Shown here one piece after another: positions 41,775 through 52,251 of a stretch of 64,000 bases of DNA. The position numbers and the translations under genes were made by a program. Source of the stretch: Gymnodinialimonas ceratoperidinii (GTDB taxonomy: Bacteria; Pseudomonadota; Alphaproteobacteria; Rhodobacterales; Rhodobacteraceae); assembly GCF_019297855.1 (NCBI RefSeq), contig NZ_CP079194.1:855501-919500 (forward strand), written 5' to 3'. Position 1 is the first letter of the stretch, and each line of letters opens with the position of its first letter. The notes under the pieces are model-generated. The model was not told the origin of the DNA, ran no database searches, and saw only the letters and a list, made by a program, of their open reading frames with translations.

Positions 41775-42953
41775 TTATTTGATGCAGACCTCGCGCGGCA
41801 GGGACGAGAGGCATTCGACGCCGGTCTCGGTGATCAGGATCGGTTCGGTGATCTCGATCCCGCCGGTGTCGAGCCAGAGGGCGGGCATGAAATGGAAGGT
41901 CATGCCGGGCTCCAGCACCGTGGTGTCATCGGAGCGGAACGACATCGTCCGCTCGCCCCAGTCGGGCGGGTAGCTGAGGCCGATGGCATAGCCGCAGCGG
42001 CTCTCCTTGACGTAGCCACGGGCGTTCAGCGTGGTGTTGAAGGCATTGGCGATATCCGCGCAGGTATTGCCCGGTTTGGCCTGATCGAGCGCCTTGGAAC
42101 TGGCCTCCAGCACCGCTTCCTCGGCACGTTTGAATTCGTCGGGCATGGTGCCGAGAAACAGCGTGCGCGACTGCGGGCAATGGTAGCGGCGGTAGACGCC
42201 CGCGATCTCGAAGAAGGTGGCCTCGCCGGGGCGCATCGGCTGGTCGTCCCAGGTCAGATGCGGCGCGGTGGCGTCCATGCCGGAGGGCGTCAGGGGCACG
42301 ATGGCGGGGTAGTCGCCCCAGGCCTCATCGGTGCCGAGGACGGAGGCGCGCATGATCTCGGCCACGAGGTGGTGTTTGGGCAGGCCCGGTTCGGCGACCT
42401 CGAGGATGCGGCGGTGCATCGCCTCGACGATACCGGCGGCCTTGCGCATCCGGTCGATCTCGGCGGGCGACTTGACGGCGCGCTGCCAGTTCACCAGCCC
42501 GGTGGCGTCGACGATCCGCGCTTGCGGCAGGTGGCCCACCAGGGTCGCATGGGCCGCGGCGGAGTAATAGTAATTGTCCATCTCCACCCCGATCCGAGCC
42601 GTTTCCGCACCGCGTTCCAGAAGCAGCTCGGCCAGGGTTTCATGCGGATGCCGGTCGGGGTTCTGGACGTAGATGTCGTCATAGCCCACCACGTGATCGT
42701 CGGGCATGTAGACCGTGCGCAGGGCGCCGAGCGCATCCATCGCACGGCCCCACCAGAGCGGCATTCCGGAGCGGCCGACAATGACGGCCTGATGCACGTA
42801 GAACGACCAGCCGTCGTAGCCCGAGATCCACGCCATGTTCGACGGATCCGTGATGACCAGCCAGTCCAGCGCGCGCTTGTCCATCTCGGCGCGCAGCTTG
42901 GCGAGGCGCGCTTCGTAGTCGGCGGTCGGGAAGGCGAGGTTGTTGCTGGACAT
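41775..42953 (-). CDS. doeA: Ectoine hydrolase (M24 peptidase family)
   Basis: A 392-residue protein. The N-terminal creatinase-type domain carries SGYDGWSFYVHQ. The C-terminal M24 pita-bread fold includes SRCGYAIGLSYPPDWGE and MTFHFMPALWLDTGG. It opens the ectoine ring to acetylated diaminobutyrate. The ATG at 42953 is used (AGAAAG upstream); an upstream ATG adds a poor 11-residue extension. No ectoine transporter is seen nearby. Confidence 0.9.
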   Translation of the reverse strand: MSSNNLAFPTADYEARLAKLRAEMDKRALDWLVITDPSNMAWISGYDGWSFYVHQAVIVGRSGMPLWWGRAMDALGALRTVYMPDDHVVGYDDIYVQNPDRHPHETLAELLLERGAETARIGVEMDNYYYSAAAHATLVGHLPQARIVDATGLVNWQRAVKSPAEIDRMRKAAGIVEAMHRRILEVAEPGLPKHHLVAEIMRASVLGTDEAWGDYPAIVPLTPSGMDATAPHLTWDDQPMRPGEATFFEIAGVYRRYHCPQSRTLFLGTMPDEFKRAEEAVLEASSKALDQAKPGNTCADIANAFNTTLNARGYVKESRCGYAIGLSYPPDWGERTMSFRSDDTTVLEPGMTFHFMPALWLDTGGIEITEPILITETGVECLSSLPREVCIK

Positions 42954-43327: not shown

Positions 43328-44698
43328 ATGCTGACGAACGACCAATTGAGCAAGTGGGATCAGGACCACTTCTTTCACCCGTCCACCGCGCTGGGGGCCC
43401 ATTCGCGGGGCGAGGCGCAGGGGATGATCATCAAGACGGCTGAGGGCTGTCACATCACCGACCGCGACGGCAACCGGATGCTCGACGCCTTTGCCGGGCT
43501 TTATTGCGTGAACATCGGCTATGGGCGGCAGGAGGTGGCCGAGGCCATCGCCGAGCAGGCACGCGAGTTGGCCTATTACCATTCCTACGTCGGCAATGGC
43601 ACAGAGGCCTCGATCACGCTGGCCAAGATGGTCGCGGAACGCGCGCCCGAGGGGCTGAACCGCGTTTTCTTCGGGCAAGGCGGCTCGGACGCGAACGAGA
43701 CCAACATCAAGCTGGTCTGGTATTACAACAACATCCTTGGGCGGCCGCAGAAGAAGAAGATCATCTCGCGCTGGCGCGGGTATCACGGCTCGGGCCTGAT
43801 GAGCGGGAGCCTGACCGGCCTGTCGCTGTTCCACAAGAAATTCGACCTGCCGCTGGATACCGTGCGCCACACGACGGCGCCTTATTACTACCAGCGCGAG
43901 GATGCGTCGCAATCGGAGGCAGAGTTCTCGGCCCAATGTGCCGCCGATCTGGAGGCGCTGATCGAGAAGGAGGGCGCGGACACCATCGCGGCCTTCATCG
44001 CCGAGCCGGTGATTGGCACCGGGGGCATCGTGCCGCCGCCCGAGGGCTACTGGGAGGCGATCCAGAAGGTGCTCAAGAAGCACGACATCCTGCTGATCGC
44101 GGATGAGGTGATCACCGGTTTCGGGCGTCTGGGCACCATGTTCGGCTCGCCGAAGTACGACATGGATCCCGACATCATCACCATCGCCAAGGGTCTGACC
44201 TCGGCCTATGCGCCGCTCTCGGGCTCCATCGTCCACGACCGCGTGTTCGAGGTTCTGGCTCGGGGCACCGACGAGAACGGTCCGCTCGGCCACGGCTGGA
44301 CCTACTCGGCCCATCCGATCGGCGCGGCGGCGGGCGTGGCGAACCTGAAGCTGCTCGACAGCCTTGGCCTCGTGCAGAATGCGGGCGAGGTCGGCCCCTA
44401 CCTGACCGAGCAGATGCGCAAGGCCTTCGAGGGTCACGACCATGTCGGTGACATCCGCGGCGTCGGCATGATGACCGCGCTGGAACTGGTCTCGGACCGC
44501 GACACCCGTGCGGGGTTCGATCCGGAGAAGAAGCTCGTGCCGCAGATCGCCGCGGCCATGGCCAAGCGCGGGGTGATCGCCCGCGCCATGCCGCAGGCCG
44601 ATATCGTGGGCTACTCGCCCCCGCTCTGCCTGACCCGCGAGGAGGCCGATACCATCGTCGGCGTCTCGGTCGAGGCTGTGGCCGAGGTTCTGGGCTGA
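43328..44698 (+). CDS. doeD: Class III aminotransferase, probable diaminobutyrate aminotransferase of ectoine breakdown
   Basis: A 456-residue PLP enzyme. Motifs: GQGGSDANETNIKL, RWRGYHGSGLMSGSLTG, FIAEPVIGTGGI, ADEVITGFGRLG and the PLP lysine in IAKGLTSAYAPLSG. Position next to doeA/doeB suggests it converts 2,4-diaminobutyrate to aspartate semialdehyde (DoeD). By sequence alone it could be another omega-aminotransferase (e.g. beta-alanine or taurine). GGAGG is seven bases before the ATG. doeC is not in the window. Confidence 0.8.
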   Translation: MLTNDQLSKWDQDHFFHPSTALGAHSRGEAQGMIIKTAEGCHITDRDGNRMLDAFAGLYCVNIGYGRQEVAEAIAEQARELAYYHSYVGNGTEASITLAKMVAERAPEGLNRVFFGQGGSDANETNIKLVWYYNNILGRPQKKKIISRWRGYHGSGLMSGSLTGLSLFHKKFDLPLDTVRHTTAPYYYQREDASQSEAEFSAQCAADLEALIEKEGADTIAAFIAEPVIGTGGIVPPPEGYWEAIQKVLKKHDILLIADEVITGFGRLGTMFGSPKYDMDPDIITIAKGLTSAYAPLSGSIVHDRVFEVLARGTDENGPLGHGWTYSAHPIGAAAGVANLKLLDSLGLVQNAGEVGPYLTEQMRKAFEGHDHVGDIRGVGMMTALELVSDRDTRAGFDPEKKLVPQIAAAMAKRGVIARAMPQADIVGYSPPLCLTREEADTIVGVSVEAVAEVLG

Positions 44699-44822: not shown

Positions 44823-45458
44823 ATGCCTGACAGCCACGTCACATGTCCAAATTGCGGCTACGGCCACGATAATCTCCGCAAATCCACCCGGATGTTCGAC
44901 TGCCCCGCCTGCGGCACCACGCTCTACCTCGAACAGGACGCGGTGAAACCCATCGGCAACAGTGGCGAGATGCACGACTACCCGATGCTGTTCGGGATCG
45001 GTGACACCGTTGAAGCCGAAGGCAAAAGCTACATCATCCAGGGCCATGCCCGTTACGATTACGGCCGCGGGACGTGGGATGAATTCTATGGCGAGGACAG
45101 CACCGGCCTGGGTGCCTGGTTCTCCATCGACGAAGGCGACGTGGTCATCCAGCACGCCTTCGACAGCGGCTCCGGCCCGCGCCGCGACACGCCGCCGGCG
45201 GTGGGCGAGAAGTTCAGCTATTCCGGCAAGGACTATACGGTGACCGAGGGCGACACGGCCACATGCATCGCTGTGCGCGGTCAATTCCCCGAGCTGATCC
45301 GCGTCGATGATGCGCATTTCTTCATCAACGCTTCAGGCGCTTCCGGCCAATTGCTGTCCGGTGAGTTCTGGGAGGGTGGACGCCAATGGTACGAGGGGGA
45401 TTGGCTTGATCCTTTCACCCTGAAGGTGCGCCGTCAGGATGGGAGCACACGCCCATGA
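44823..45458 (+). CDS. Zinc-ribbon DUF4178 protein (first of operon)
   Basis: A 211-residue protein. N-terminal zinc ribbon with C8, C11, C27 and C30 (TCPNCGYGH ... DCPACG), then a DUF4178 beta-barrel domain with GIGDTVEAEGKSYIIQGHAR, YDYGRGTWDEFY and LGAWFSIDEGDVV. The domain is known mostly from genes near polyamine/AdoMet enzymes and DUF350 proteins and has no proven activity. First gene of the coupled five-gene operon 44823-48734; it overlaps the next by four bases. Confidence 0.88.
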   Translation: MPDSHVTCPNCGYGHDNLRKSTRMFDCPACGTTLYLEQDAVKPIGNSGEMHDYPMLFGIGDTVEAEGKSYIIQGHARYDYGRGTWDEFYGEDSTGLGAWFSIDEGDVVIQHAFDSGSGPRRDTPPAVGEKFSYSGKDYTVTEGDTATCIAVRGQFPELIRVDDAHFFINASGASGQLLSGEFWEGGRQWYEGDWLDPFTLKVRRQDGSTRP

Positions 45459-46732
45459 CAAGCAAGATGGGCTTGGGTTCGGTCAATTGCACCTCCTGCG
45501 GGGCGGGGCTTTCGGTGCTCGGCGGCGGCCGGGTCGAGACGCATGTCTGTGGCTACTGTGGCGCAGTGCTGGACGCGCAGGACAATTACCGCGAGATCGC
45601 CAACATCGGCAAACGCAACCACCCTGACAGCCCTGTGCAGATCGGCCAGTCGCTGACCCTCGAGGGGGTGGAGTTCACCGTGATCGGCACCCTTGGCATG
45701 GTCGAGCGCTACGGCGGGCGCGAGTGGCGTTGGGTGGAGCATCAGCTGTTCTCGCCCACCCACGGATACCTGTGGTTGAACGTCGAGGACGGGCATCTCA
45801 GCTACACGCGCAAGATCCGCGACTACAACATGAGTGCGTGGCTCAGCCCCGCGACGGTGGAGCGCTCGGAGACGCCGCCGATCCGCGTCTACAAGACCGA
45901 GCAATATCGCTACTACGACACGACCGTCGCCGAGATCGACTTCATGGAAGGCGAGTTCAACTGGGTGCCGAAACTGGGCGAGAAGACCACGAGCGTGAAC
46001 CTGCTCGGGCCCGACGCCATGCTGACCCTGACCAAGTCGAAGACGGAGCGAGAGGTGGAGCTGACACGGCTTTTGCCGCGCGCCGAGACCGCCCGTGATC
46101 TGGGCTTCGATGAAGCGGCCCTCGGGCCGGTCGGACAGGCGCATCCGCTGGCGCCCTACGTGCCGATGCCTGAGGAACGGCTCTTGCGGCGCGTCCTCGC
46201 CGGCGTTGCGGTTGTCGCGGCCGTGCTTGGCATGATCTTCTGGTTCTCGGGCGGGCGCGTGATACTGGAATCGCCCTACCTCGAGACCGCGACACTGCCC
46301 CAGATCGTCGAGTTCGAGATCGATAACACCGCGCAATTGGCGCAGCTTCAGTTCCGCACCACCTTCAACAATCAATGGGCGACCTTCGGCACCGAGTTGC
46401 GCGATCCGGACGGCGAGGTCATCCTGACCGGCGAGCGCACCGTCTCGTTCTATTCCGGCCGCTCCGGCGGCGAGAGCTGGTCCGAGGGCAGCCGCCGCAG
46501 CACGATCCGGTTCCGCCCCACGCAACCGGGCACCTACCGGGCGTCGCTGGTTCAGGTCGCGGCCTCGAACCCCGGCAGTGGCACCGTTTCCATGCGCGTG
46601 TCCCAAGGAAAGCCGACGGGCTTCTGGCTGATCGGTCTTGCCGTGATCGCCGGCCTTGGCTGGCTCGCCGTGACCGCCCGGAGCGCGGCCCACAAGAAAC
46701 GCCGGTTCGCCGGCTCTGACTGGAACGACTGA
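45455..46732 (+). CDS. Zinc-ribbon DUF4178 membrane protein (second of operon)
   Basis: A 425-residue protein. N-terminal zinc ribbon (C12, C15, C32, C35), then a DUF4178 domain (VQIGQSLTLEGVEFTVIGT, YGGREWRWVEHQLF), a membrane helix near 247-268 (LAGVAVVAAVLGMIFWF), a beta-sandwich exported domain (EFEIDNTAQLAQLQFRTTF, TIRFRPTQPGTYRASLV) and a second helix near the C-terminus (FWLIGLAVIAGLGWLAV). So the ribbon and DUF4178 are cytoplasmic and the sandwich is periplasmic. It forms a fusion-like longer partner of the first gene. Confidence 0.86.
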   Translation: MTSKMGLGSVNCTSCGAGLSVLGGGRVETHVCGYCGAVLDAQDNYREIANIGKRNHPDSPVQIGQSLTLEGVEFTVIGTLGMVERYGGREWRWVEHQLFSPTHGYLWLNVEDGHLSYTRKIRDYNMSAWLSPATVERSETPPIRVYKTEQYRYYDTTVAEIDFMEGEFNWVPKLGEKTTSVNLLGPDAMLTLTKSKTEREVELTRLLPRAETARDLGFDEAALGPVGQAHPLAPYVPMPEERLLRRVLAGVAVVAAVLGMIFWFSGGRVILESPYLETATLPQIVEFEIDNTAQLAQLQFRTTFNNQWATFGTELRDPDGEVILTGERTVSFYSGRSGGESWSEGSRRSTIRFRPTQPGTYRASLVQVAASNPGSGTVSMRVSQGKPTGFWLIGLAVIAGLGWLAVTARSAAHKKRRFAGSDWND

Positions 46733-46914
46733 TGGCCCCTATCCGTCTCATCATCATCGGCGGCGCCGTGATCGCCCTTCTGGGGGCCAGTTACCTCAGC
46801 TACTATGGCGTGGGCCGCGAAAGCCGTGACCTCGCCGCCGCCGGTCCGCCCTCGGTCCGGGCGGGATCAACAGGGTCAGGCGGGGGCTTCTTCGCCTTCG
46901 GTCGGATCAAATGA
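46732..46914 (+). CDS. 60-residue single-pass membrane protein (third of operon)
   Basis: A short protein with one membrane helix (RLIIIGGAVIALLGASYLSY) and a small Gly/Ser-rich tail ending FFAFGRIK. Its ATG overlaps the stop of the previous gene (TGATG) and it has no own ribosome site, so it is coupled. No family recognised. Likely a small subunit or stabiliser of the neighbouring membrane proteins (inference). Confidence 0.7.
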   Translation: MAPIRLIIIGGAVIALLGASYLSYYGVGRESRDLAAAGPPSVRAGSTGSGGGFFAFGRIK

Positions 46915-46944
46915 ACGCCATGCAACAACAGGAGCCTTCGCGCC

Positions 46945-47163
46945 ATGTTTGAACAAATCATCCTCGCCGAGTTCATTTCGATGATCTTCTATAGCGTCGT
47001 CGGCATGTTGCTGATGTACGTCGCCTACAAGGTGATCGAGATCGTCTCGCCCTTCCCGATCGTGAAAGAGATCGAGGAAGACCAGAACACCTCGCTGGCG
47101 ATCCTGATCGGCTCTGTCTTCGTGGCCATGTCGATCATCATCGCGGCTGTTATCCTTTCGTGA
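46945..47163 (+). CDS. DUF350 membrane protein (fourth of operon)
   Basis: A 72-residue protein with two membrane helices: SVVGMLLMYVAYKVIEIV and SLAILIGSVFVAMSIIIAAV, with the EIEEDQNTSLAI loop characteristic of DUF350 (YjfL-like). The family often has two to four such units; this is a single two-helix unit. AGGAG precedes the ATG. Its stop overlaps the GTG of the next gene. Confidence 0.88.
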   Translation: MFEQIILAEFISMIFYSVVGMLLMYVAYKVIEIVSPFPIVKEIEEDQNTSLAILIGSVFVAMSIIIAAVILS

Positions 47164-48734
47164 GCGAGGCCACGGGGGGGCAGGCCGGACCGGATGACGG
47201 CGGGCTGACCCCGAAGGTTGCCTGGCTGCTTGCGGCCACCTTCATCGTGGCCGTCGCGGGGCTGATCTACGAGCTGATCGCGGCCACGATATCCTCCTAC
47301 CTGCTTGGCGACTCGATCCGTCAGTTCTCCTTCGTCATCGGCGTGTTTCTCAGTGCCATGGGCGTGGGAGCCTGGGCCTCGCGCTTCGTGGGCGACGCGC
47401 TGTCGGGCTTCGTCCGGGCGCAGATCGCGCTTGGGGCGATCGGGGGCGCGCTCGGGCCGGTGCTGTTCTTTACCTATGCGATTTACGGCTCGGTGGGATT
47501 GCCGCTTTACGGCGGCCTCGTCGCCATCGGCGTGTTGTCGGGTATGGAGATCCCCCTGATCAGCCGCGTGATGAAAGAGATCGGCGCCGCGGAATTCCGG
47601 TTCGAGAACGTGCTGACCGCCGATTACATCGGTGCCCTGGCCGCGTCACTGGCCTTCCCCCTGCTGATCGTGCCGAACCTGCCGCTAATGAGCGCTTCCC
47701 TGGCCTTCGGCATTCTCAATCTGTTGGTGGCGGGCTTCTCGCTTTACCTCTTCTCCGAGCGTCTGCCGCGGCAGCTGTGGTGGGCCTGGGGCGGGCTTCT
47801 CCTTGCCGCGCTCGTGGCTTTCGGGATGAGCGAGCGCATGGTCTCGGCTGTAGACGCGCGCCTGTTCCAGGACGAGGTGATCTTCTCCGAAACCACGGCC
47901 TACCAAAGCATCGTCATCACCCGCTTCGACGACCGCTACCGCCTGTTTCTCGATCACTCGATTCAGTTCGACAGCCTCGATGAGCATCGCTACCACGAGG
48001 CTCTGGTTCACCCCGCGATGGGCCTCGTCCCCGATGCCCGCCGCGTTCTGGTTCTTGGCGGCGGCGACGGCATGGCGGTGCGCGAGGTGCTGCGTCACGA
48101 GGGAGTGACCCATGTCACGCTGGTCGACCTCGACCCCCGCGTGACCGAGCTCTTTGCAGAGAACCCCGCGCTGGTCTCGCTGAACGCCGGCGCCCTGACG
48201 GACCCGCGGGTCGAGATCATCAACGCAGATGCCTGGGTATGGGCAGCGGAGGCGGAAGAGGTCTATGACGTCATCATCGCCGATCTACCGGACCCCAAAA
48301 GCATCGCGCTGAGCAAGCTCTACTCGGTGGAATTCTACGCCATGATCGCAGAGCGGCTCTCGGGCCACGGGCTTTTTGTCACGCAGGCGGGCTCTCCCAC
48401 CTTTGCCACCGACGCCTTCTGGATTACCGAAGCGACACTTGCGGCCACCCGCAGCCCCACGGCGCCCGGCGAAACCCTCGAAACACTGGCCTACCAGACG
48501 TATCTGCCGAGTTTCGGGAATTGGGGTTTCGTCATGGCTGGCCCCGCGCTGCCCGCCCCCGACCGGGCGCCGGACCTACCCGAAGGCCTTCGCTATATGA
48601 CGGCAGACCTCTGGCAGGCCTCCCAAGCCTTCGGCGCCGATCAGGCGCGGCCAGATGAGGTGCCCGTCAACACGATCCAGGGCCATCCCCTTGTGGCGGC
48701 CTATCAACGCGGCTGGGACTACTGGTTTCGATAG
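47160..48734 (+). CDS. Membrane-embedded spermidine-synthase-like aminopropyltransferase (fifth of operon)
   Basis: A 524-residue protein with GTG start in the DUF350 stop (GTGA). The N-terminal 215 residues contain about seven membrane helices. The C-terminal half is a SpeE-type Rossmann domain with DHSIQFDSLDEHRYHEAL, VLVLGGGDGMAVREVL (AdoMet binding), DLDPRV, INADAWVW and the catalytic IADLPDPKSIALSKLYSVEFY-like segment, where both acidic residues of the DxxD motif are kept. So it looks enzymatically intact. No AdoMet decarboxylase or ATP-grasp partner is in the window. Its true acceptor substrate is unknown. Confidence 0.9.
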   Translation: MSEATGGQAGPDDGGLTPKVAWLLAATFIVAVAGLIYELIAATISSYLLGDSIRQFSFVIGVFLSAMGVGAWASRFVGDALSGFVRAQIALGAIGGALGPVLFFTYAIYGSVGLPLYGGLVAIGVLSGMEIPLISRVMKEIGAAEFRFENVLTADYIGALAASLAFPLLIVPNLPLMSASLAFGILNLLVAGFSLYLFSERLPRQLWWAWGGLLLAALVAFGMSERMVSAVDARLFQDEVIFSETTAYQSIVITRFDDRYRLFLDHSIQFDSLDEHRYHEALVHPAMGLVPDARRVLVLGGGDGMAVREVLRHEGVTHVTLVDLDPRVTELFAENPALVSLNAGALTDPRVEIINADAWVWAAEAEEVYDVIIADLPDPKSIALSKLYSVEFYAMIAERLSGHGLFVTQAGSPTFATDAFWITEATLAATRSPTAPGETLETLAYQTYLPSFGNWGFVMAGPALPAPDRAPDLPEGLRYMTADLWQASQAFGADQARPDEVPVNTIQGHPLVAAYQRGWDYWFR

Positions 48735-49114: not shown

Positions 49115-50092
49115 TCAGCGTTCTTTCACATAGGGCTCGCCACCCGCACGCGGCGGGATGGCGCGGCCGACGAAGCCTGCGAGGATCACGACGGTGAGGA
49201 TATAGGGCAGCGCCTGCATGAACTGCACCGGCACGGTGATCGTGAACAGCTCGATGTTCTGAAACCGGTTGCCCACGGCATCGAGCAGACCGAAGAGGAG
49301 GCAAGCGTAGAGCGCGTACCAAGGGCGCCATTTCGCGAAAATCAGGGCGGCGAGGGCGATGAAGCCACGGCCGGCGCTCATATCCTTCACGAAGCCGGCC
49401 GAGAGCCCGGTGGCGAGGTAGGCGCCAGCGAGACCGCAGAGGACGCCCGCGATGACCACGGCGGAGTAGCGCAAGGCCACGACCGAGATACCCGCCGTAT
49501 CCACGGCGCCGGGGTTTTCGCCCACGGCTCGCAGGCGCAGGCCGAAGCGCGTGCGATAAAGGACCCACCACGACAGTGGCACGATTAGCAGCGAGGCGTA
49601 GACCAGGATCGAGTGGCCGGAGATGAGCTCGGAATAGATCTGTCCCAGGGGTCCCAATTCGGCGATGTCGCGGATACGGGAGACGGCACCGGGCAGAACA
49701 ATCTCGTCAAAGCGCGCGCTGCCGGTGAGCGGTGGCGTACGGCCACCTTGAGAGAACCACGTCTGTGCGATGACTACGGTCAGGCCGGCGGCGAGGAAGT
49801 TGATCGCGACGCCGGAGATCAGCTGGTTGCCCCGGAAGGTGATCGACGCCAGCCCGTGCAGGAGCGACAGGACGATGGAGGCGAGGACACCGGCCCCGAG
49901 CCCGATCCAGACGCTGCCGGAGGTAAAGGCAATGGCGGCGGAGAAGAAGGCCGCTGCGAGCATCTTGCCTTCCAGCCCGATGTCGAAAATGCCGGCCCGT
50001 TCCGAGAACAATCCAGCGAGGCACGCCAGCAGGAGCGGCGTCGCAAGGCGGATCGAACTGTCGAGCAATTGCAAGATGGTCATGAAATCCAT
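49115..50092 (-). CDS. Nucleoside-type ABC transporter permease 2 (NupQ/YufQ-like)
   Basis: A 325-residue permease of the BPD_transp_2 type. The family motif FSERAGIFDIGLEGKMLAAA is followed by about nine membrane helices and the RAVGENPGAVDTAGI loop. It pairs with the 363-residue permease at 51160. The ATG at 50092 is chosen because the family starts here; an upstream extension in this frame is the shadow of the LysE gene. Last gene of the transporter operon. Confidence 0.93.
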   Translation of the reverse strand: MDFMTILQLLDSSIRLATPLLLACLAGLFSERAGIFDIGLEGKMLAAAFFSAAIAFTSGSVWIGLGAGVLASIVLSLLHGLASITFRGNQLISGVAINFLAAGLTVVIAQTWFSQGGRTPPLTGSARFDEIVLPGAVSRIRDIAELGPLGQIYSELISGHSILVYASLLIVPLSWWVLYRTRFGLRLRAVGENPGAVDTAGISVVALRYSAVVIAGVLCGLAGAYLATGLSAGFVKDMSAGRGFIALAALIFAKWRPWYALYACLLFGLLDAVGNRFQNIELFTITVPVQFMQALPYILTVVILAGFVGRAIPPRAGGEPYVKER

Positions 50093-50096
50093 GGGC

Positions 50097-50735
50097 TCAG
50101 CTCCGAGAAGTGGCGAGAGTGAAGGCTGCGAAGGCGAAGAACGCGCCCAGGGCGGCCTCGATATAGCGGCGGGCGTAATGATAGGCGGCGCGCACCGGCG
50201 AGGCTGACAGGGCGACAGCCCATGCGCCGTGGCAAGCGAAGGAGAGGACCCACATCGAGCCGACAAACAGCGCGACCACCCAGAGCGGCGCATTGGCGGT
50301 CGCTCCGACACCTGCGATGGCCAGCCAGAAGGCGATCGCCTTGGGGTTGGTGATCTGTAGCAGGTAGCCTTTGACGAACAGGGCGCCTGTGCCTTGGCGG
50401 CGGACGTTCATCGCTGCAATCGTCGGCGGGTTGAGCGCTTTGCGGAACGCGCCGTAGGCGAGGTACGCGAGATAGGCGGACCCCGCGATGCGCAGGATCA
50501 TCATCGCCCAAGCAGCCTGGCTCAGGATCAGGCCGACCCCGAGGATCGTCAGCAGGTTGATCGTGGCCGATCCCGTGGCGATCCCGGCGCAGGCGATCAG
50601 GCCTGCCGCGCGACCCTGGCCCACGGAGATGCCCATCAGCATGGCAACGGCCGGCCCCGGTGAGAGCGCGCCGACCAGCAGAAAGCTGTGGGCGATAAAG
50701 AAGGCAGGCAGGAACGGCAGAAGGGTATCGGTCAT
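50097..50735 (-). CDS. LysE/RhtB-family exporter
   Basis: A 212-residue protein with about six helices and the LysE signature GALSPGPAVAMLMGISVGQG near the N-terminus and GYLLQITNPKAIAFWLA in the middle. The family exports amino acids or related small molecules. It is inserted between two nucleoside-type permease genes with 4-base spacing/overlap on either side, an odd place for an exporter. Confidence 0.9.
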   Translation of the reverse strand: MTDTLLPFLPAFFIAHSFLLVGALSPGPAVAMLMGISVGQGRAAGLIACAGIATGSATINLLTILGVGLILSQAAWAMMILRIAGSAYLAYLAYGAFRKALNPPTIAAMNVRRQGTGALFVKGYLLQITNPKAIAFWLAIAGVGATANAPLWVVALFVGSMWVLSFACHGAWAVALSASPVRAAYHYARRYIEAALGAFFAFAAFTLATSRS

Positions 50736-51163
50736 TGCGCGGCTCCGATCTGGAGCGTGTCGAAGACCTCAAGAAAGCGGTCGGCCACGACGGGATGCGC
50801 CTCCAACGCGTCGAGGGCGTCTTCCTTGCTCACCCAGGCATCCGCCTCGGGCTGCTGCACCACGCCGCGGCGGTGGCCGATCCCGGTCAGGGCCTTGGCA
50901 TGGGCGCGCTTGTCGAGCAGGGGGTCGTAGGGCGTGAAGCCGCCGGGACCGGTGGTGCGGTGTTTGAAGGCACCGGACTCGATTGACGGGCCGGTCATGT
51001 AGTCGATCATGTAGGACGGCAGGTCCGCATCGGGCGTGGTCATCACGACCCGCTCGGCCCAAGCCCGGAACTCCGCCATCGTGACGGCTTCGTAGGTGCA
51101 GGCCGAGGTGGCGAAGCCGAGGTCCGCCGGGTCGTCCTTGGTGATGCGCCAGACCCTGCTCAT
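50732..51163 (-). CDS. Protein of unknown function in the nucleoside transporter operon
   Basis: A 143-residue soluble protein starting MSRVWRITKDDPADLGFATS. A TTGPGGFTPYDPLLDKR loop and an RGVVQQPEADAWVSKEDALD segment are visible, but no known motif. Its stop overlaps the LysE start and its start overlaps the permease 1 stop (both ATGA). Membership in the operon suggests a role in handling the imported or exported compound. I do not recognise the family. Confidence 0.72.
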   Translation of the reverse strand: MSRVWRITKDDPADLGFATSACTYEAVTMAEFRAWAERVVMTTPDADLPSYMIDYMTGPSIESGAFKHRTTGPGGFTPYDPLLDKRAHAKALTGIGHRRGVVQQPEADAWVSKEDALDALEAHPVVADRFLEVFDTLQIGAAQ

Positions 51164-52251
51164 TGAGACCTCGGACGCAGGGCCAGGAAGAGCTTCTCCA
51201 TCGGCATGCGCACCATGTTGTCGAGCGCGCCGGTGAACAGGATCACGAGGGCCTGGATCACGAGGATCATCTCGCGCGAGATGGCGGGCATTTCGAATTC
51301 AAGCTCCGCACCGCCCTGGTAGAGCGCGCCGAAGAGCAACGCGGCGAGGAAGACGCCGATCGGATGGGAACGGCCCATGAGCGCCACGGCGATGCCCACG
51401 AACCCGGCGCCTTGAACGGAGTCGATGACCAGACGTTCCGCTTCGCCCTGAACGCCGTTGATTGCCATCATCCCGCAGAGCGCGCCCGAGATCAGCATGG
51501 CGATCATGGTGATGCGCACCGGGTTGATCCCGGCATAGACGGCGGCGGTCTGCGAATGGCCGAAGGCGCGGATCTCGTAGCCCAGACGGGTGCGCCAGAT
51601 CAGCAGCCAGACGGCGACACAGGCGGCGATGGCGACAAAGAAGGACACGTTCAGGGGGGTCGAGGACCGGAAGCCGAGGAAGCCTGCGAAAGCGGCGGCA
51701 TTGGGCAGATGCGTGCCCTCGGCAAAGCGCGCGGTTTCGGGCGCCATGGAGCCCGGAACGCGGAACACGTTGACCAGCAAATAGACCAGCAAGGCCGAGG
51801 CGATGAAGTTGAACATGATCGTGGTGATCACGATGTGAGAGCCACGCTTGGCTTGCAGATATGCCGGGATCGCGGCCCAGGCGGCGCCGAAAACGGCGGC
51901 TGCGATGGTGCAGGCGATCAGGGCCAGAGACCAATGCGGCCAGGGCACGGACAGCGCCATGATCGCCACGCCAAGGCCGCCGAGCGCGGCCTGCCCCTCA
52001 CCGCCGATGTTGAACAGGCGCGCGTGGAAGGCCACGGCGACACCGAGTCCGGTGAAGATGAAATTGGTCGTGTAGAACAGGGTGTAGCCCCACCCGTAGG
52101 CATTGCCGAAGGCGCCCCGGATCATGATCTGCATCGCCTCGAAGGGGTTCTCGCCGATCAGCGCCACGACGATCCCCGAGGCGATCAACGCCAGCAGAAC
52201 CGAGATCAGCGGGATGAGGAGCACATCGGCCCATTTTGGCATCTTGTCCAT
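51160..52251 (-). CDS. Nucleoside-type ABC transporter permease 1 (NupP/YufP-like)
   Basis: A 363-residue permease with about ten helices. The signature RLFNIGGEGQAALGG and the loop EIRAFGHSQTAAVYAGIN are typical of the BPD_transp_2 permeases that pair with BMP-family binding proteins. It follows the ATPase gene with a one-base gap. The C-terminal MVRMPMEKLFLALRPRS is cytoplasmic. Confidence 0.93.
   Translation of the reverse strand: MDKMPKWADVLLIPLISVLLALIASGIVVALIGENPFEAMQIMIRGAFGNAYGWGYTLFYTTNFIFTGLGVAVAFHARLFNIGGEGQAALGGLGVAIMALSVPWPHWSLALIACTIAAAVFGAAWAAIPAYLQAKRGSHIVITTIMFNFIASALLVYLLVNVFRVPGSMAPETARFAEGTHLPNAAAFAGFLGFRSSTPLNVSFFVAIAACVAVWLLIWRTRLGYEIRAFGHSQTAAVYAGINPVRITMIAMLISGALCGMMAINGVQGEAERLVIDSVQGAGFVGIAVALMGRSHPIGVFLAALLFGALYQGGAELEFEMPAISREMILVIQALVILFTGALDNMVRMPMEKLFLALRPRSQ

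Follow-up and report, generated by a model that had tools for sequence, protein, structure and literature searches.

A close relative of the operon studied here has already been reported: Ravi et al. (2024; PMC11237479) described a CesT/Tir–PspA operon with a seven-transmembrane (7TM) spermidine synthase, DUF350, the Ctha_1186 lipoprotein, and DUF4178, noted PspA-less variants of a related polyamine operon, and proposed a role in monitoring polyamines or in aminopropylating other substrates. In the part of that paper available to us, we found no mention of a terminal lysine or of mini-TM genes. As far as the available part describes it, that operon shares with the Gymnodinialimonas ceratoperidinii locus the combination of a membrane aminopropyltransferase with DUF350 and DUF4178, but it has PspA and a lipoprotein, whereas the locus here has no PspA and encodes a mini-TM protein ending in lysine (K). 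As operons of this type had been published in a form with PspA, the one here is a PspA-less variant; a preliminary description of this DNA had suggested that it may be a compact version. The operon type is thus known, and the mini-TM protein with its lysine tail looks new.

The enzyme shares the fold and residues of its catalytic domain with soluble spermidine/thermospermine synthases (SpeE), from which it differs in the added 7TM domain, the operon partners, and the nearby K tail. Pederick et al. are said to have described, in 2023, YjfIJKLMC- and YgiC-type systems with an ATP-grasp peptide–spermidine ligase. In Escherichia coli, YjfM ends in GG and is encoded beside YjfC, annotated as peptide–spermidine ligase. 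The likeness to this system lies in the DUF350 partner and the Ser/Gly-tailed protein beside a polyamine enzyme, whereas the Yjf/YgiC systems have an ATP-grasp ligase and a Gly-Gly/Gly-Ser tail in place of an aminopropyltransferase and a Lys tail. Polyamine-type groups on protein lysines are found in the deoxyhypusine/hypusine of eIF5A and in diatom silaffins. A protein C terminus carries such a group in SUMO–spermidine conjugates (PMC12270671). All these cases, the last as described in the available part of its source, involve other enzymes and donors and are not bacterial membrane tails. Our literature search found no paper on aminopropyl-lysine and, among the matches listed (12 of 63), none on aminopropylation of a C-terminal lysine; DUF4178 turned up in a single paper.

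Organization of the Operon

The window, a stretch of 64,000 nucleotides, contains an operon of five genes, P1 to P5 (Table 1), whose junctions are, in order, −4, −1, +30, and −4 bases, just as the preliminary description had it: five genes on one strand with tiny overlaps and a single 30-base gap. It also correctly named two zinc-ribbon DUF4178 proteins and a two-helix DUF350 protein. P1 has no TM segment by hydropathy. The AlphaFold model of P2 (mean pLDDT 93.1) places a helix (241–264), the expected beta-sandwich (268–386), and a second helix (390–417) after the N-terminal domains; a comparison of its fold with PDB entries found nothing closer than generic beta-sandwiches, all of them weak matches. 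The match of P4 spans positions 3–65 of the 133 of the DUF350 profile, which makes it a half-length form. P3 has no Pfam match, and a Pfam scan found no CesT/Tir-like protein among the five genes. A class III aminotransferase gene 124 bases upstream, adjoining an ectoine-hydrolase-like gene, was rejected as an operon member, and a cluster of upstream genes of about 466 aa each (c7) is common to just 17 of 80 loci and so falls outside the wider set.

Table 1. Positions, within the window, of the operon genes and their parts
Feature	Position	Strand	Remarks
P1, zinc-ribbon + DUF4178, 211 aa	44823..45458	+	Pfam PF13785, 82.4 bits, cut-off 25
P2, zinc-ribbon + DUF4178 + TM + beta-sandwich + TM, 425 aa	45455..46732	+	Pfam PF13785, 62.3 bits, cut-off 25
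P3, single-TM protein, 60 aa, tail Gly/Ser-rich with C-terminal Lys60; proposed acceptor	46732..46914	+	
P3 tail, residues 38–60	46843..46911	+	Terminal Lys codon AAA 46909–46911; stop 46912–46914
P4, half-length DUF350 protein, 72 aa, two TM helices	46945..47163	+	Pfam PF03994, 43.6 bits
P5, aminopropyltransferase, 524 aa, GTG start	47160..48734	+	Pfam Spermine_synth, 113.8 bits, cut-off 22.9
P5 membrane domain, seven TM helices	47160..47873	+	AlphaFold
P5 aminopropyltransferase domain, from residue 239	47874..48734	+	Predicted extracytoplasmic

P5 was described beforehand as a spermidine-synthase-like enzyme with seven membrane helices and intact motifs, and each of these points held. It scores 621.9 bits with the NCBIfam model PRK03612, polyamine aminopropyltransferase (cut-off 472), and its AlphaFold model (mean pLDDT 92.5) shows seven TM helices followed by a spermidine-synthase domain. 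The GGGDG and DLPDP motifs are intact, and among 127 sequences D274, Y278, H279, D303, D375, and D378 are 100% conserved; which of the conserved residues are catalytic we take from family knowledge. Within the membrane domain, E38, E130, R136, D155, and N187 are 99–100% conserved in the same 127 sequences. Among solved enzymes, P5 comes closest to thermospermine synthase, to Pyrobaculum SpeE, and to the triamine/agmatine enzyme of Thermus, which accept longer acceptors.

Conservation Across Loci and Genomes

We compared 131 loci encoding the membrane aminopropyltransferase, 126 of them distinct, as five enzymes duplicate another's (L100/L079, L117/L007, L118/L017, L121/L009, and L122/L065). 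One set of relatives consisted of the best 80 of 357, so that close relatives are overrepresented in it. The five genes occur in the same order, beyond what chance would give, in all 33 loci L006–L038, which are Rhodobacteraceae-type records, one of them titled Maritalea, and P1 is present in each. DUF4178 is absent in 3 of the 12 enzyme-bearing genomes of the family, and the five-gene set is thus not universal. A DUF350-type match lies close to the enzyme in 117 of the 131 loci and an SPFH gene in 51. Co-occurrence outside the source genome, on which the preliminary description had made its reading depend, was found across phyla.

S-adenosylmethionine (AdoMet) decarboxylase, SpeD, makes decarboxylated AdoMet, the aminopropyl donor. 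The preliminary description considered a PspA-like or AdoMet-decarboxylase partner to be lacking here. We found SpeD elsewhere in the source genome (C1:2224573; TIGR03330, 129.1 bits against 75.65); the genome gave no PF04012 match for PspA and no PF03738 match for a GSP_synth ATP-grasp protein. In the family, SpeD is present in 12/12 genomes with the membrane enzyme and in 22/138 without it (P = 3e-9), being absent from 116 of 150 in total; it lies near the enzyme, within the fetched stretch, in just 65 of the 131 loci. Because of its presence in all 12 enzyme-bearing genomes, we rejected AdoMet itself as the direct donor (aminocarboxypropyl transfer in the style of betaine lipids). No SpeE other than P5 scores above cut-off in the source genome. 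Carboxyspermidine decarboxylase (nspC) gave no match over the cut-off there; its best match, of 20.8 bits against 409, falls on an ORF judged by eye to be a diaminopimelate decarboxylase, and the carboxyspermidine route was set aside.

A Terminal Lysine in the Neighborhood of the Enzyme

The preliminary description rightly saw P3 as a 60-residue protein with a single TM helix but missed the conserved lysine that ends its tail. K is the last residue of the P3 homologues in all 33 loci L006–L038 as well as in the window, and in a larger set all 39 matches to a P3 model end in K. More widely, a protein with a Gly/Ser-rich tail and terminal Lys was found in 127 of the 131 enzyme loci, from several phyla, the carriers being mini-TM proteins, DUF4178 fusions, lipoprotein-like proteins, and a membrane protein of about 200 aa; in L091–L093 the carrier is an unrelated type of protein. 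Two loci, L134 and L137, have the enzyme, but their contigs, taken as a whole, contain no K tail that we found convincing; a 48-aa ORF ending GSTRGK in L166 was judged a chance occurrence, and in L102 a distance of about 10 kb separates the tail from the enzyme. Taking the last 24 residues, 118 tails were distinct, and the terminal Lys stands out in them: 96 have no internal K, and the internal K:R ratio is 30:283, against 1276:4782 in P5. The tails are otherwise short, Gly/Ser-rich, and basic, with little other conservation.

To keep the last residue out of the choice, we next picked small-TM ORFs solely by their position after a gene. Such an ORF followed 89 of 112 TM-bearing P2-type (DUF4178) genes, the remaining 23 having no candidate. 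After 88 of the 89, one such ORF ended in K, as did 88 of the 95 candidates overall. L115 is the exception, its P2-type gene having the K tail fused to it; a fused tail is seen in 12 P2-type genes. The same test after DUF350, enzyme, SpeD, SPFH, or oxidase genes gave 0/17 (Fisher P value about 9e-19 against 88/89, for loci that are not independent), and after P1-type genes 1/1. The 125 stored tails comprise these 88 and 37 that were not blind to the last residue, since 12 are the fusions and 25 came from C-terminal strings already inspected. In a control, a strict K-tail filter retained 85/131 enzyme loci vs. 1/20 soluble-SpeE loci and a loose filter 121/131 vs. 5/20, with control loci of 10–12 kb and most enzyme loci of 14–17.5 kb.

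The sister systems end differently. Among 18 loci with a YjfC-like ATP-grasp enzyme, 13 have a recognizable Ser/Gly-tailed neighbor, chosen by visual inspection of rows that had passed a filter for G+S+R content, with none for the last residue; 11 end in GG, 2 in GS, and none in K. In the other 5 loci, one of them (L178) with a doubtful ORF ending SG, a tail gene could not be made out clearly, and the 13 do not include them. With Gly ends beside ATP-grasp enzymes and Lys ends beside aminopropyltransferases, the terminal residue matches the chemistry of each enzyme.

The N terminus of P5 is predicted to be cytoplasmic in 127/127 sequences by the positive-inside rule, and together with the seven helices of the model this would place the catalytic domain outside the cytoplasm. 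Most evidence puts the P3 tail, as a prediction, on the same side. In the mini-proteins, charge is more positive before the TM segment in 73 of 98 and the expected bias is absent in 25; these TM and charge counts are rough, coming from simple hydropathy, and lipoprotein signals were judged by eye. One of the 11 DUF4178–tail fusions, that of L115, has two predicted TM segments, so that its tail lies on the same side as DUF4178. Arguments from membrane side are also not clean in that the ATP-grasp enzyme is presumably cytosolic though its carrier looks exported.

Possible Substrates of the Enzyme

The presence of a Lys-tailed protein near the enzyme in nearly all relatives suggests that a polyamine piece is attached to a protein end, beyond the making of free polyamines. 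In the reading that we favor, for which we judge the chances to be even, the operon is a protein-modification module in which P5 aminopropylates the C-terminal lysine of P3. SpeD, from its chromosomal locus, would supply decarboxylated AdoMet, and P5 would move the aminopropyl group to the epsilon-amine of Lys60, whose side chain, -(CH2)4-NH2, would take the place of putrescine. P3 would then end in N-(3-aminopropyl)lysine, which amounts to a spermidine anchored on a membrane protein, and the predicted modification adds 57.06 Da to a named residue. As decarboxylated AdoMet is cytosolic, an extracytoplasmic catalytic domain would need the donor to be exported, perhaps by way of the P5 membrane domain, in which polar residues are invariant. 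P1, P2, and P4, joined in relatives by PspA/TelA, a band-7/SPFH protein, or a flavin amine oxidase whose start is twin-arginine-like, would form a membrane complex around them that probably serves envelope homeostasis. Lysine as the acceptor, access of the donor to the catalytic domain, and the physiological role are what we infer.

Of the modifications of lipid, peptide, or polyamine proposed in the preliminary description, the peptide form is supported, and the lipid form stays as a rival. The argument in that description from membrane embedding against the bulk synthesis of polyamines is not conclusive: as the only SpeE above cut-off in a genome with SpeD and no nspC match over the cut-off, P5 could make free spermidine. 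It may then be a membrane-anchored ordinary spermidine synthase whose free product arises near the membrane, with the Lys tail as a regulatory pseudo-substrate or sensor, an explanation that we hold to be rather unlikely although the equivalog score of P5 and intact catalytic residues agree with it, as does the lack of a soluble SpeE-type match of the 141–170 bit class in 11 of the 12 enzyme-bearing family genomes. Genus G022, however, has a soluble SpeE, adjoining SpeD, as well as the membrane enzyme; the lack of SpeD altogether in most of the family also argues against an ordinary synthase, the invariant in-membrane residues would seem unneeded for anchoring, and the GG/K switch between enzyme types is left unexplained.

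Those polar residues and the predicted extracytoplasmic active site would suit modification, at the outer surface of the inner membrane, of a substrate that is small or a lipid (the head group of an amino-phospholipid, for instance), with the K-tailed protein as a structural or signaling partner; linkage to membrane-stress genes, both in the available part of the published account (PMC11237479) and through SPFH, points the same way. We consider this improbable, as it explains neither an invariant terminal Lys in tails with little other conservation nor the Gly ends beside ATP-grasp enzymes. Least probable, to a degree that we would call slight, is that another component reads the lysine as a signal for docking, sorting, or proteolysis, unrelated to aminopropyl transfer. 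The composition of the tails and the near-constant DUF350 partners are compatible with it, but L091–L093 have the Lys tail, the enzyme, and SpeD with no DUF4178 or DUF350 gene found in the stretch, which makes the enzyme the common factor.

If P5 does aminopropylate the P3 lysine, a widespread "spermidine synthase" family would consist of protein-modifying enzymes, a use of SpeD beside free polyamines would be explained, and small membrane proteins without a Pfam match, such as P3, would become substrates. The envelope-stress operons with DUF350, DUF4178, SPFH, and PspA and the YjfC ligase operons would then share one theme, polyamine-ended membrane proteins. More speculatively, and with the balance against it, two convergent bacterial systems may cap the C terminus of exported Ser/Gly-tailed proteins with a polyamine: ATP-grasp enzymes would join spermidine to Gly-Gly, and P5-type enzymes would build a spermidine-like end on Lys in the periplasm, their own 7TM domain carrying decarboxylated AdoMet across; repeated transfers could give long polyamine tails, from which the exported flavin amine oxidase that many of the operons encode could make cross-linking aldehydes.

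Operon genes and their surroundings

The preliminary description had placed five genes in one operon, and reading the ORFs of the window reproduced that placement exactly, with junctions of -4, -1, +30 and -4 bases. In profile searches, P1 and P2 were assigned to DUF4178, P4 to a half-length DUF350, and P5, hereafter the enzyme, to PRK03612 polyamine aminopropyltransferases (621.9 bits; cut-off 472), while P3 (60 aa) matched no family. AlphaFold models built with family alignments were confident for P2 (a beta-sandwich flanked by two TM helices; pLDDT 93.1) and P5 (seven TM helices followed by a spermidine-synthase domain; pLDDT 92.5). The divergent pair upstream of the operon suggests ectoine degradation; two ABC permease-like genes lie downstream.

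Operon genes and neighbouring genes, with positions in the window
Feature	Position	Strand	Assignment
Upstream gene	41775-42947	-	ectoine hydrolase DoeA-like; 596.6 bits, slightly below cut-off 613
Upstream gene	43328-44698	+	class III aminotransferase, NF005684; 809.1 bits, cut-off 687
P1	44823..45458	+	zinc ribbon, DUF4178
P2	45455..46732	+	zinc ribbon, DUF4178, TM, beta-sandwich, TM
P3	46732..46914	+	single-TM protein
P4	46945..47163	+	half-length DUF350
P5	47160..48734	+	seven-TM aminopropyltransferase
Downstream gene	49115-50134	-	ABC permease-like; top model 'putative B6 ABC transporter', 163.7 bits, far under cut-off 465
Downstream gene	51160-52251	-	ABC permease-like; top model 'putative B6 ABC transporter', 127.6 bits, far under cut-off 400

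Conservation of the gene set

We compared 131 loci carrying the enzyme. A contig scan gave 80 loci, the best 80 of 357 relatives, and a 397-genome sample of the phylum, with the enzyme above the cut-off in 44 genomes, contributed 44 besides the window's own. All five genes were present in the same order in 33 of 33 loci from Rhodobacteraceae-type records (L006-L038), one of them titled Maritalea. Outside this group, DUF4178-type and DUF350 genes accompany the enzyme, often together with a band-7/SPFH protein, a flavin amine oxidase and SpeD; in Novosphingobium sp. ES2-1 a single run comprises SPFH, two DUF4178 genes, a 48-aa protein, DUF350, aminopropyltransferase, FAD oxidoreductase and SpeD. 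Counted at E up to 1e-6 and inside the fetched stretch only, neighbours of the 131 enzyme genes included DUF350 (117 loci), P2-type genes (109), SpeD (65), SPFH (51) and amine oxidase (50). DUF4178 was found in 10 of 150 genomes of the window's family, namely 9 of the 12 with the enzyme and G140, which has no enzyme match. In one family genome, G083, a DUF350 protein aligns to profile positions 2-133 of 133 (L097, G083:C1:240000-256000); this genome did not appear in the family-search listings for SpeD, DUF4178, PRK03612-type or GSP_synth ATP-grasp matches.

A lysine-ended tail accompanies the enzyme

P3 ends in ...GSTGSGGGFFAFGRIK, and the final residue was lysine in 33/33 homologues from L006-L038 and in 39/39 hits of the P3 model in a larger locus set. 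In other groups the corresponding place is occupied by a small TM gene or by a fusion of the tail to a DUF4178-type protein, again lysine-ended (...SGGGHK, ...YRGGK, ...GPGSGK). Lipoprotein-like proteins end in ...SRGK or ...RRGK in Gammaproteobacterial-type operons and in ...GPSSGK in Alteromonas, and in three family genera without DUF4178 an unrelated protein of ~200 aa directly upstream of the enzyme ends in ...RAGK or ...SAGK. Overall, 127 of 131 enzyme loci have such a tail (125 from the tail survey plus L047 and L102, the latter with its tail ~10 kb away), making it a near-universal partner feature of the enzyme, of which we found no earlier report. Internal lysines are rare, with none in 96 of 118 distinct tails. 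The four failures are L061 and L114, where one side is unseen (L061 begins at a contig end and L114 ends 82 bases past the enzyme), and L134 and L137, whose whole contigs held no convincing tail; these last two possibly use another type of carrier. Their enzymes are divergent membrane aminopropyltransferases in frames of 601-620 aa.

In a blind test, small-TM ORFs were picked by position after a gene, ignoring the last residue. At least one such ORF followed 89 of 112 TM-bearing P2-type genes, and a lysine-ended one followed 88 of these 89 (88 of 95 candidate ORFs); in the exception, L115, the tail is fused to the P2-type protein itself. Seventeen DUF350, enzyme, SpeD, SPFH or amine oxidase genes were followed by such an ORF, which was never lysine-ended; the single ORF found after P1-type genes did end in lysine. 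Fifteen of the 112 P2-type proteins themselves end in lysine, and in 12 of these the end is a Gly/Ser tail. A strict filter recovered the tail in 1/20 soluble-SpeE control loci vs 85/131 enzyme loci, and a loose filter in 5/20 vs 121/131.

Topology and conserved residues

In all 127 P5 sequences, the side of the membrane that holds the N terminus carries more positive residues, which together with the seven helices predicts a catalytic domain outside. The tail is likewise predicted outside by three lines: the carriers judged by eye to be lipoprotein-like, the charge bias of the mini-proteins (73 of 98 carry more positive charge ahead of the TM, 6 show the reverse and 19 are balanced), and the fusions, of which 10 of 11 have an odd count of TM segments C-terminal to DUF4178 (L115 has two). 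Across the same 127 sequences, D274, Y278, H279, D303, D357, D375, D378 and Q409, which we take to be active-site residues from their roles in soluble enzymes, are 100% conserved; the membrane part probably does more than anchor the protein, because E38, E130, R136, D155 and N187 within it are 99-100% conserved.

Related systems and interpretation

Operons of a 7TM spermidine synthase, DUF350, DUF4178, a lipoprotein and CesT/Tir-PspA, proposed to monitor polyamines or to aminopropylate other substrates, appear in the available part of Ravi et al. 2024 (PMC11237479), where we found no mention of a terminal lysine. The window's operon is a PspA-less variant of this kind, as its genome has no PspA match. 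A search of one limited library for aminopropyl-lysine wording found no paper.

Escherichia coli yjfIJKLMC encodes a DUF350 protein (YjfL), a Ser/Gly-tailed protein with a Gly-Gly end (YjfM) and YjfC, annotated as a peptide--spermidine ligase; this YjfC-type system is reportedly the subject of an experimental paper by Pederick and colleagues from 2023. Among 18 family loci with a GSP_synth ATP-grasp gene, 13 had a recognisable Ser/Gly-tailed neighbour, ending in GG (11) or GS (2) and never in K. DUF350 was found in none of these 18 genomes, so the likeness to the window's module lies in tail and enzyme but not in the whole operon. The last residue thus tracks the enzyme, a carboxylate-acting ligase going with Gly and an amine-acting transferase with Lys, and we regard this match as the best clue that the enzyme's substrate would be the end of the tail.

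Modification of the terminal lysine is the best explanation, to which we give about an even chance. Its main rival is that P5 is an ordinary membrane spermidine synthase. The window's genome carries SpeD as a stand-alone gene, no SpeE other than the membrane enzyme scores above the cut-off, and searches for GSP_synth ATP-grasp and, above the cut-off, carboxyspermidine decarboxylase gave no match. Among the 150 family genomes (one per genus of Rhodobacteraceae, the family inferred from named near relatives), SpeD occurs in 34 and the membrane enzyme above the cut-off in 12; all 12 enzyme-bearing genomes have SpeD vs 22 of 138 others (Fisher p = 3e-9). Twenty of the 22 SpeD-only genomes have a soluble SpeE-type match (141-170 bits; exceptions G042 and G140), and only G022 has both enzyme types. 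A polyamine-independent role of SpeD has reportedly been described by Li and colleagues (2019). The solved structures nearest P5 are a Thermus triamine/agmatine aminopropyltransferase, Pyrobaculum SpeE and Medicago thermospermine synthase.

Many lineages have a flavin amine oxidase gene close to that of the enzyme (e.g., L044:9498-11186); the window's operon has none. This oxidase could act on the polyamine-like product; its N terminus is twin-arginine-like, 44 of 51 showing the pattern in a loose form, and sometimes lipobox-like.
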